A stretch of DNA of 55,599 bases from contig CANQCL010000013.1 in the NCBI GenBank assembly GCA_947589215.1, positions 1-55,599 on the forward strand. The letters run 5' to 3'. The notes under the pieces are model-generated. The model did not search any database. It was not told where the DNA came from and worked only from the letters and a program-made list of their open reading frames with translations. Positions 38,757 through 55,599 of the stretch are shown piece after piece; the stretch's first letter is position 1, and every line of letters starts with the position of its first letter. The DNA comes from an uncultured Clostridia bacterium (GTDB lineage: Bacteria; Bacillota; Clostridia; Oscillospirales; Ruminococcaceae). Made by a program: the position numbers and the translations under genes.

Positions 38757-38841
38757 TTCTCGTCTTTCAAAAATTTAATCTATTTATATTTTATTTGGGT
38801 ATGAATATATTGTCAAGTCATAAATAAAAAAGCAAAAACCC

Positions 38842-38870
38842 TTGACTTTTTTGCCAAAAGATGTTATTGT
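38842..38870 (+). promoter_or_regulatory. Promoter of poly-G leader 1
   Basis: TTGACT (38842-38847), 17-base spacer, TATTGT (38865-38870). It aligns with the promoter of leader 2 (54670-54698): both begin AAAAACCC and share ATGTTA before the -10 box. Confidence 0.65.
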
Positions 38871-38892
38871 ATTCTTGTTTGGAGGAATATTT

Positions 38893-39009
38893 ATGTGCAG
38901 AACAGTTAATGTAATAAAATGTAAACGGGGGGGGGGCTTAAAAGCCTGACTTTTATTTGTTATGCACAAAATAATTCTCTGAAATCTAATATTGAATATA
39001 AGGCGTAGT
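38893..39009 (+). CDS. 38-residue leader peptide 1, read through a 10-G run
   Basis: ATG 38893 has GGAGG nine bases upstream. The frame encodes MCRTVNVIKCKR, three Gly from the G run, then LKSLTFICYAQNNS and a Lys/Glu-containing end, stopping at TAG 39007-39009. Leader 2 is also 38 codons, begins Met-Cys, crosses an 11-G run, and shares TFI-x-C/Y-AQN. With 9 G the frame meets TAA four codons after the run begins; with 11 G it stops at a TAA at about 38973. The present 10 G gives the full frame. TAG lies inside the 5' arm of the following terminator. Confidence 0.7.
38927..38936 (+). repeat. Poly-G tract, 10 bases, inside leader 1
   Basis: Ten G in AT-rich DNA, within the leader reading frame. 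Runs this long are prone to slippage during replication. Confidence 0.9.
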
Positions 39010-39036
39010 ATGCATAGGCGTACTGCGTTTTTTATT
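39001..39036 (+). terminator. Attenuator terminator of leader 1
   Basis: Stem CGTAGTATGC (39005-39014) with GCGTACTGCG (39019-39028), two G-T pairs, loop ATAG, then TTTTTT. The leader stop codon occupies pairs 3-5 of the 5' arm. A ribosome at that stop would prevent the stem from forming. Confidence 0.82.
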
Positions 39037-39063
39037 ATTTAATTATATTTTGGGAGGTCTATT

Positions 39064-39876
39064 ATGATGAAAAAAGTTTTAAATCTATTGACAGCTTTGG
39101 TTATGGCTATCAGTTTGATAGGAGTTATTCCAGTTGTAAATGTATGTGGTGAAACCACAAATCCAACCACAGGTTTATCAACAACTGTTTTGCCTACGAC
39201 AGTTGTTAAGCCATCTTTAGTTACCAGACCAACTTCAATAAAACCAACTACACCGAAAAAAAGAACAGTTACTAAAGAAAAAACAACTATTAAAGCAACT
39301 GATAAGGCTACAAAAACCATAACCAAAGCTCTGGCTAGAGAAATAATGAAAAAGGCAAAAATTAAAAAACTTAAAGTTGCAAGTAGAGACAATAAAATAC
39401 TAGCAAATTGGAAATATATTAAAAATGCAACAGGTTATAAAATGCAAGTTTCAAACACTAAAAATTTCAAAAAAATAATTAAAACTGTTAATGTAAGAAA
39501 TCCTAAAGAAAAAATCGTTGATGGTGATAATATTGCTTATTATAAACCTAGTATGGCAGGTATTATGGTAAATAAAAAATTTCCAGCCGGTAATTCATAT
39601 TATATTAGGGTAAGAGCATACACAGCTTATAAAACTTCAACAGGAGTTAAAAAGAGAGTTTATAGTAAATGGAAAAAGTCTAAGAAAGTTAAGATAATTA
39701 AATCAACAATTAAAACATCTTGGTGGTTAACAGATCAGTGGAAAACTTATAGTTATATAGATATTAATAATAATTATTGGGATTCAAATGGATATTTCTG
39801 TAAATACGAAAATATGTTAAGAAAGAGTGGTGGTTTTTCTTCATATGAGATAAAACATATATTAAGCGAAATTTAA
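39064..39876 (+). CDS. Secreted Thr-rich protein with Fn3-like domain, 270 aa
   Basis: A signal peptide (about 1-30, ending VNVCGE) is followed by a Thr/Pro/Lys-rich linker (about 32-100) and an Fn3-like domain (about 100-215) whose NWKYIKNATGYKMQVSNTKN and YYIRVRAYTAYK segments match the C-terminal domain of the 1390-residue protein. The last 55 residues (SWWLTDQWKTYSY onward) are Trp/Tyr/Asn-rich and unassigned. GGGAGG precedes two adjacent ATGs (39064 and 39067). Expression must pass the poly-G leader and its terminator upstream. Confidence 0.82.
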   Translation: MMKKVLNLLTALVMAISLIGVIPVVNVCGETTNPTTGLSTTVLPTTVVKPSLVTRPTSIKPTTPKKRTVTKEKTTIKATDKATKTITKALAREIMKKAKIKKLKVASRDNKILANWKYIKNATGYKMQVSNTKNFKKIIKTVNVRNPKEKIVDGDNIAYYKPSMAGIMVNKKFPAGNSYYIRVRAYTAYKTSTGVKKRVYSKWKKSKKVKIIKSTIKTSWWLTDQWKTYSYIDINNNYWDSNGYFCKYENMLRKSGGFSSYEIKHILSEI

Positions 39877-54669: not shown

Positions 54670-54698
54670 TTGACACCCCTGTCGAAAAATGTTACAAT
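54670..54698 (+). promoter_or_regulatory. Promoter of poly-G leader 2
   Basis: TTGACA (54670-54675), 17-base spacer, TACAAT (54693-54698). Confidence 0.75.
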
Positions 54699-54727
54699 AT
54701 ACACATCTTAGTTAAGGAGTGATATTT

Positions 54728-54844
54728 ATGTGTACGATTAACTCCCAATTTTTAACAGGGGGGGGGGGCGTAAAGCCAACCTTTATTAGTTGTGCACAAA
54801 ATATTGCTAAATTGAATAAGTTATATATTGTAAATAGGACGTAG
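54728..54844 (+). CDS. 38-residue leader peptide 2, read through an 11-G run
   Basis: AAGGAG lies upstream of ATG 54728. The frame encodes MCTINSQFLT, four Gly from the G run, VKPTFISCAQN and a Lys/Asn/Ile-rich end, stopping at TAG 54842-54844. It equals leader 1 in length (38 codons), start (Met-Cys), order of parts and the TFI..AQN segment, although the DNA has diverged. With 10 G it would stop at TAA directly after the run; with 12 G at a TAG seven codons after it. TAG lies in the 5' arm of the terminator, at the same pairs as in leader 1. Confidence 0.72.
   Translation: MCTINSQFLTGGGGVKPTFISCAQNIAKLNKLYIVNRT
54758..54768 (+). repeat. Poly-G tract, 11 bases, inside leader 2
   Basis: Eleven G in a row, within the leader frame, in AT-rich surroundings. 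Confidence 0.9.
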
Positions 54845-54872
54845 TATGCGTAGGCGTACTGCGTCTTTTTGT
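54838..54872 (+). terminator. Attenuator terminator of leader 2
   Basis: Stem GACGTAGTATGC (54838-54849) with GCGTACTGCGTC (54854-54865), two G-T pairs, loop GTAG, then TTTTTGTGTTTTT. The leader TAG lies in the 5' arm. Confidence 0.85.
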
Positions 54873-54901
54873 GTTTTTGGAGGTGATTGGAAATTTTTAA
54901 T

Positions 54902-54950
54902 ACAGCAAAGAATGGCAGACGCTTTGCTGTTTGTAACGTCCTCAGTCTGC
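54902..54950 (+). promoter_or_regulatory. Alternative hairpins between leader 2 terminator and the BspA-like gene
   Basis: ACAGCAAAG / CTTTGCTGT (54902-54910 with 54922-54930) encloses GCAGAC (54915-54920), which can instead pair with GTCTGC (54945-54950) just before the AAAGGAG at 54951. The two pairings cross, so the untranslated region may hold a pseudoknot or a switch. Confidence 0.4.
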
Positions 54951-54985
54951 AAAGGAGTATTAAGAAGAAAGGATGGTTTTCTAAA

Positions 54986-55599
54986 ATGAAAACTAAAAGA
55001 ATTATATCATTGCTTGCGTCATTAGCAATGATAGTAACAGCGATTACAGGTACAATGACGGTATCGGCTGTTGAAGCTAATGGAAAAATAGGAGACAACT
55101 TAACTTGGACGCTTGATGCAAACGGCAAGCTTACAATATCTGGAGAGGGAGCGATGGCTTCGCCTGAAGTTATAAATGTGACACATGCTAATGGTTTTAG
55201 CAATACAGGTAAGTCTGGTCTAGAAAAGGCACTAGAAACACAACTGAAGGATTATACGGAAATTTATACATATAAAGAACATATGGAGGAAATTAAAGAG
55301 GTAGTAATAGGAGAAGGAGTAACATCAATAGGATTTGCTGCATTTTATAAAATGCCAAACCTTGAAAGTGTGGTATTACCTTCTACTATTTCAGAGTTTA
55401 AAGGTATAGGGTATAACACTCATACTAATGATGTTGATGCACATGGTCCCGGCCCTATACATGCTTATGCAAGTTTGGCATTTGCAGAGTGTACAAAACT
55501 TAAAAAGCTTACTTTAACTGATGGTATGACAGCAATAGGAAGTATTGCATTTTATGGCTGTACAGCATTAGAGAGTGTAAGAATACCATCAACAATTAA
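54986..55599 (+). CDS. BspA-like leucine-rich-repeat surface protein, N-terminal part (runs off the window)
   Basis: ATG 54986 follows AAAGGATGG. The visible 204 residues have a signal peptide (about 1-28, ending TVSAVE), the NLTWTLDANGKLTISGEGAM block typical of clostridial BspA-like proteins and LRR_5 repeats (VVIGEGVTSIGFAAFYKMPN; LTLTDGMTAIGSIAFYGC). The last window bases look like a TAA, but the frame passes through them two bases out of register, so the gene continues. Such proteins act in adhesion at the surface. It is the apparent target of leader 2. Confidence 0.88.
   Translation, partial: MKTKRIISLLASLAMIVTAITGTMTVSAVEANGKIGDNLTWTLDANGKLTISGEGAMASPEVINVTHANGFSNTGKSGLEKALETQLKDYTEIYTYKEHMEEIKEVVIGEGVTSIGFAAFYKMPNLESVVLPSTISEFKGIGYNTHTNDVDAHGPGPIHAYASLAFAECTKLKKLTLTDGMTAIGSIAFYGCTALESVRIPSTI

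Follow-up and report, generated by a model that had tools for sequence, protein, structure and literature searches.

A multi-copy family of poly-G leader reading frames in Clostridia that probably gate transcription attenuators by phase variation

Two short leader open reading frames (ORFs), each crossed by a run of G and followed by an intrinsic terminator, precede genes for secreted-type proteins in the 55,599-nucleotide stretch of Clostridia DNA analysed here (the window). They belong to a family present in many copies in one genus. We consider it probable that the ORFs undergo slipped-strand phase variation and so gate an attenuator: slippage would take place in living clones, the translating ribosome would drive read-through, and a helix over the leader start (P1) would act as a lock. 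This reading is drawn from the anatomy of the leaders, the logic of their registers, covariation in P1 and in the terminator, conservation across the family, and differences in run length among copies and orthologs.

All features described lie on the forward strand. At leader 1 the original prediction had named a promoter, a strong ribosome site, a run of 10 G and a Rho-independent terminator, and each is found. The promoter-like site at 38842–38870 (−35 TTGACT, 17 nt, −10 TATTGT with TG before it; 9/12) is weak taken alone, because seven comparable sites occur in the 800 bases scanned compared with 3.4 in shuffles. The Shine–Dalgarno sequence GGAGG (38881–38885) stands before ATG 38893, and the 10-G run occupies 38927–38936; the two G runs of the window give seven overlapping G8 matches, where shuffles lead one to expect 0.15. 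Folding gives a small hairpin between the end of the run and GCC (38934–38947), and the terminator (39000–39033) consists of a stem at 39000–39031 (−18 kcal/mol, z −5.8), which holds a TAG in its 5′ arm, followed by a U run. The ORF itself has to be redrawn. It had been given as 38 codons at 38893–39009 with 10 G, but the TAG lies at 39006–39008, and 39006 − 38893 = 113 is not a multiple of three. With the assembled 10 G, the ORF spans 38893–38949 and encodes 18 codons (MCRTVNVIKCKRGGGLKA), ending at a TGA (38947–38949) about 50 nt upstream of the terminator stem, which is the OFF register. With 11 G (38 codons) or 8 G (37 codons) the frame is open from 38893 to the TAG at 39008, and with 9 or 12 G a TAA stop follows directly after the run. 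Of the early stops foreseen for 9 and 11 G, the former is borne out and the latter is not; 10 G, taken as the ON length, is OFF and 11 G is ON, the two states having been inverted by a one-base coordinate error.

Leader 2 has the same parts: a promoter at 54670–54698 (TTGACA, 17 nt, TACAAT; 11/12), a 38-codon ORF at 54728–54844 from ATG 54728 to TAG 54842–54844, an 11-G run at 54758–54768, P1 strands predicted by folding at 54718–54741 (5′) and 54786–54808 (3′), and a terminator hairpin at 54836–54867 (−21.8 kcal/mol, z −6.0). By predicted register, leader 1 is assembled OFF and leader 2 ON.

A switching mechanism is proposed where the sigma-70-type promoter yields a short leader mRNA, on which a ribosome would load at once and move across the G run. 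A ribosome in the right register would pass the stretch that pairs with the start and either stop in, or traverse, the 5′ side of the terminator; the hairpin would be blocked and RNA polymerase would continue into the downstream gene (ON). In the other registers the ribosome would be released after the G run and the leader would fold, P1 would mask the leader start and probably the ribosome site as well, and the terminator would form, leaving the gene silent. Replication slippage in the G run would reset the register, giving a heritable and random switch at each locus. The notion that a ribosome finishing the leader masks the 5′ arm, and that a slipped run prevents this, had already been put forward; it fits both the family and the Streptococcus gallolyticus system compared below, with the register the other way round.

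A search of the leaders' own genome, using a conserved stretch and runs of at least 9 G, gave 12 aligned leader copies on ten contigs; two of these copies, C9 and C27, are truncated at contig ends and may represent a single locus split in half. All 11 runs of at least 9 G in this genome fall inside leader copies, which places the association of leader and G run above chance. With a sequence-only model built from these copies (R1), 84 matches were obtained at E ≤ 0.01; they come from 13 of the 15 genomes of the genus, own genome included (14 matches), with up to 18 per genome and a single weak match in G001; 73 of the 84 were read, the 11 weakest being omitted. When R1 was run on 297 family genomes, three further genera proved to carry copies. 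A second model that adds P1 and the terminator (R2) had matches in 13 genomes out of 396 from the family and in 6 out of 394 from the order, counts that take in the own genus. Of its 16 matches outside the genus, 12 were examined, in genera g16, g28, g36, g66 and g74. Three others, weak matches in G096, G418 and G676, were rejected as leaders, since only a terminator-like hairpin was seen, and one, a third copy in G387, could not be placed within its locus. The element is thus dense in one genus and sporadic elsewhere, in five other genera. A pattern scan of named genomes returned at least 111 stretches, most of which are not leaders as judged by filter or by eye. Among the matches listed, four from the metagenome-assembled genome (MAG) 'Cyanobacteria bacterium SIG32' (L160, L168, L233 and L239), of an unrelated phylum, are leader-like; a short ORF start, 9 G and then TTTGCACAAAA were read in L160, L168 and L239, L233 being listed only. 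One leader of the genus has a run of 26 G (L131, G009:C13:35221-35401). G006:C48 (L094) looks by eye like a chimera, with a 5′ half of the G006 leader type and a 3′ half of the G009:C2 (L130) type, which suggests that leaders may recombine with one another at the G run.

The anatomy is conserved across these copies. A sigma-70-like promoter with a 17-nt spacer scores 10–12/12 in 56 of the 63 leaders with enough upstream DNA (3.4% in shuffles), and the start codon is ATG or GTG behind a Shine–Dalgarno-like sequence. A run of at least 6 G is present in 62 leaders. Truncation at a contig end leaves four of these without a hairpin, and C22 breaks off ahead of its terminator (the hairpin listed there is spurious); the other 57 have a complete terminator. 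Every one of these 57 has one or more frames that lead uninterrupted from the G run into the terminator, compared with about 31 in shuffles. The stop of an open frame lies within the 5′ arm or loop, or 1 nt before it, in 46; in the other 11, for example C10a, the frame passes beyond the hairpin with no stop in the 5′ arm or loop. Of the 12 copies examined in other genera, 11 can be read in a register whose stop falls within the 5′ arm or the loop, with differing peptides, and the twelfth has a stop codon upstream of its G run. The stretch containing TGCACA is translated as AQ in some clades and LHK in others, so we infer that the feature kept is a translatable path into the terminator rather than a peptide. 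A conserved AQN had invited an arrest-peptide interpretation; this was rejected, as other clades use another frame and the RNA stretch pairs with the start region. A DnaA-box interpretation of TTATGCACA was also discarded, the box not being kept across copies by eye. Some copies have a short or absent G run. In G006:C9, G014:C1, G387a (5 G), G370c and G744 the frame is still open into the terminator, and these resemble locked-ON forms; it is closed in G000:C1, G000:C2, G004:C2, G004:C21, G012:C14, G145b and G387b, which look like locked-OFF or dying copies. In G010:C22 the stop falls 6 nt short of the stem. The closed copies, G010:C22 and the 11 frames that pass beyond the hairpin weigh against the proposed mechanism, whereas the copies still open with a short or absent run speak for it.

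The original prediction missed the pairing of the leader start region with sequence that lies 3′ of the G run. In leader 1, the 5′ strand of this helix, P1 (38878–38899), comprises the Shine–Dalgarno sequence, the spacer, the start codon with the A of AUG bulged, and codons 2–3; the 3′ strand (38963–38983) comprises the TGCACA motif and an anti-Shine–Dalgarno sequence, and lies within the ON-register frame. The leader start (AUGUGCA) contains UGUGCA, whose reverse complement is TGCACA, and the two sides change together: UGUACA occurs with UGUACA in G006, UGCGCA with UGCGCA in G009, UGUACAGAU with AUCUGUACA in G007, and ACUUAUGUUUU with AAAGCAUAAGU in G273. A leader start pairs better with the downstream part of its own leader than with one taken from another cluster (17.0 vs 14.0; 16 clusters, 61 leaders; 0 of 20000 permutations), and a swap test by duplex energy gave −15.6 for own and −11.2 for swapped partners (18 clusters, 60 leaders; again 0 of 20000). 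In an alignment made by the sequence-only model (A2), both sides have changed in 94 cells vs 33.8 in shuffles (0 of 500), with compensatory changes at five of eight P1 pairs and eight of 12 terminator pairs; at the outer three counted P1 pairs, 22 to 41 of about 67 rows show no pairing. Folding carries P1 over the Shine–Dalgarno sequence in both leaders of the window, and P1 likely conceals the ribosome site; taken alone, the Shine–Dalgarno part has weak support, since 916 of 20000 permutations reach it and it lies about 1 sd from shuffles. In G176 (locus L186, shared with RGIG8644), neither folding nor the swap test gave a convincing P1, which, like the unpaired outer positions, weighs against the mechanism. 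RNAalifold, given all 76 rows, recovered the terminator and not P1, probably owing to the many partial or gapped rows, and P1 was therefore assessed by the named structure and by swap tests.

The genes behind the leaders mostly encode proteins with a secreted-type N-terminus, which a simple hydrophobicity rule assigns to 45 of the 63 leaders where a downstream ORF was found; ten leaders have none, mostly at contig ends, and most downstream genes were judged by the N-terminus only. Regulated gene 1 (39064–39876), called Fn3-like in the original prediction, encodes a secreted-type protein of 270 aa without a Pfam match, and its ortholog in G005 is 97.9% identical in DNA. Regulated gene 2 (54986–55599, cut by the contig end) encodes a BspA-type leucine-rich-repeat secreted protein (LRR_5, E 2e-20). 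Between terminator 2 and this gene, window positions 54886–54958 hold a stretch shared with paralogs (GGAGGTGATTGGAAATTTTTAATACAGC...) that has paired arms and a possible second short ORF reading toward the gene start. Scanning showed that leader 2 and its paralogs precede three proteins of the BspA type with leucine-rich repeats, two of them with fn3, and that another downstream protein, of 2116 aa, has six FctA pilin-type stretches. Among the other 18 downstream genes, five have similar N-termini, and the one scanned from this group is an ABC transporter; several have response-regulator-like starts, and four have alike starts of one family.

The leader-1 locus lies beside apbE, in synteny with three relatives. 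The leader is 93–94% identical to those of the relatives while the adjoining apbE is 75–78% identical; a different gene replaces gene 1 in G011, and one gene intervenes in G010. The locus thus looks like a recombining expression site. When L098, L104 and L109 are set against window positions 38780–39876, the leader is 93–94% identical and different secreted-type genes stand behind it.

Counting G at the leader-1 locus in assemblies of relatives, as had been proposed at the outset for related strains, shows that the run differs in length between orthologs: it is 10 G here and 9, 9 and 9 in three relatives. Four paralogs of similar sequence around the run, two being cut copies, carry 11, 11, 11 and 12 G. 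Among the 53 genus copies with at least 7 G, a count that includes C22 with its cut terminator, 10 are ON, 35 have one G too many, 6 one too few and 2 are ambiguous. A further, clustered count of 59 G-run copies, which adds seven from other genera and from which a filter dropped one ON copy (G010:C43), gives 39 that need one G fewer (or two more), 8 that need one more, 10 ON and 2 ambiguous; by cluster (30 in all), a surplus base predominates in 17 and a missing base in 4 (sign test, p 0.0036), and outside the genus the two classes stand at 4 to 2. In G006, ten main-type copies share a single OFF register; one of them has 8 G, and another has 12 G offset by a compensating loss. Free-running slippage would not produce this unless selection acted. 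Such a bias is not predicted by simple random slippage; selection for OFF with an easy return through loss of one G, or slippage at the RNA level, would give it. Assembled G counts may be off, and for Bifidobacterium the available part of a published study likewise advises caution with annotated G counts (PMC9187656).

Poly-G is not confined to leaders across the genus, because G002, with no leader match, and G001, with its weak one, each hold ten runs of at least 9 G; G008 has neither leaders nor such runs. Twenty stretches around other runs of this length in relatives were inspected: by eye several lie in promoter-like spacers, and five lie in coding sequences, two in frame and three out of frame. 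Runs of 9–10 G between −35 and −10 were seen at G014:C4:2382 (L317), G007:C5:3483 (L322), G002:C4:132101 (L306) and G002:C9:217025 (L312), where promoter strength may follow the number of G; in L306 and L312, TGCACAAAA lies upstream. The coding runs (also 9–10 G) are at G002:C5:60895, 63147 and 67806 (L307–L309), G014:C4:135622 (L318) and G005:C24:6557 (L320), and the genes are of F420-hydrogenase type, hexapeptide transferase, glycosyltransferase, FkbM methyltransferase and, just below the cut-off, acyltransferase. Promoter spacers and transferase-like coding sequences are ordinary places for phase variation.

The excess of copies with one extra base raises the alternative that the register is fixed and slippage happens at the RNA level: the leader would be built one base too long, and polymerase slippage or +1 ribosomal frameshifting on the G run would bring some of the transcripts or ribosomes to the terminator, giving graded, non-heritable expression. 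The 39 to 8 split of OFF copies, its persistence among clusters and outside the genus, and the maintenance of the G006 register through compensating length changes all argue for it. Against it, roughly a sixth of the copies are ON as assembled, a difference of one G separates orthologs as well as similar paralogs, the runs of 9–10 G in relatives occupy ordinary phase-variation places with two of the five coding ones in frame, and G145b retains the extra base without a G run. We regard this alternative as unlikely, with some real weight. A bolder variant, which we hold a little more doubtfully, takes the extra base as design: RNA-level slippage and the start helix would together set read-through for many surface proteins at a low, noisy level maintained by translation, with heritable loss of a G as the extreme state. 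Such a slippage-gated attenuator is not known from any described system.

Other explanations concern what the leader senses, or whether the G counts carry meaning. The covarying P1, the G-run hairpin and the low folding energies (z below −2 in 47 of 61 leaders) could belong to a structured RNA that senses a protein or ligand, with the ORF incidental. This is improbable, given that a frame opens into the terminator in every measurable copy, that the start codon is ATG or GTG behind a Shine–Dalgarno-like sequence, and that the two window leaders match no Rfam family at the curated threshold. Miscounted runs in real leaders, in which case the switch states would mean little, seem somewhat less probable again: the named relatives are MAGs with NODE-type contig names, probably from short reads, and several contigs end at the G run, but the anatomy is independent of G counts and the lengths group consistently by clade. 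Least credible is a trp/his-type attenuator in which the run encodes glycine and the ribosome senses charged tRNA-Gly. The usual registers do place two to four consecutive Gly codons in the run; however, the downstream genes seen are mostly for secreted proteins and not glycine metabolism, registers vary among copies, the open frame persists where Gly codons are few, and an informal look noticed no competing antiterminator stem.

If phase variation of the leader ORF does gate the attenuator, a mechanism for which one Streptococcus has supplied the proof, at two loci, would extend to a multi-copy family of gut Clostridia, and one genome could switch about a dozen genes independently, mostly for secreted proteins. 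The R2 model provides a means of searching for such switches in uncultured bacteria. The natural series of G lengths, the locked-open copies and the P1 variants are material for testing attenuation by translation, and the off-by-one register bias poses a new question.

The original prediction knew of no named system of this kind in Clostridia; a described system does exist, in a Streptococcus. Among the matches listed from the full-text literature, which mostly leaves subscription papers outside its coverage, that system was the one of this kind, and no poly-G leader attenuator in Clostridia was seen. In the pyrBI attenuator of E. coli, a ribosome that translates the leader into the terminator stem prevents termination, and control is exerted by UTP-dependent pausing of RNA polymerase. 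The Clostridia leaders would share with pyrBI the translation into a terminator stem and differ in that a repeat tract would exert the control.

At the S. gallolyticus loci pil1 and pil3, as described in the available part of the report, GCAGA repeats in a leader ORF shift the stop into the terminator and raise pilus transcription, and the switch was demonstrated with mutants of the start and the terminator and with added stop codons (Danne et al. 2014, PMC3894217). As far as that text goes, both systems have a repeat tract inside a short leader ORF, a register that sets the stop either well upstream of, or in or past, an intrinsic terminator, surface adhesin genes downstream, and a low state that is the majority state. 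The Clostridia leaders also show the features of the pil1 kind in that the ORF holding the tract is served by a promoter, a ribosome site and a start codon of its own, and the intrinsic terminator lies between the leader and the structural gene. They are best read as working like the pil1 leader, a functional likeness that we do not file as homology. The differences, again by the available text, are that the tract is of GCAGA pentamers in S. gallolyticus and of poly-G here; that two registers are high and one low there, whereas usually one is ON and two are OFF here; that two loci contrast with up to 18 matches per Clostridia genome; that a helix covers the leader start here, of which that text makes no mention for pil1 or pil3; and that the S. 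gallolyticus switch is proven by mutants whereas the Clostridia switch is predicted from sequence. In the gut commensal Bifidobacterium breve, slippage in tracts of 11–12 G in sortase-pilus genes switches surface pili (PMC9187656), and according to the part of that study available the tract lies in the structural gene rather than in a leader attenuator as in Clostridia. The kind of switch is therefore already known from S. gallolyticus; what is new is that the tract consists of G, that one register in most cases is the ON register, that a helix covers the start, that there are many copies, and that OFF copies are biased toward one base too many.
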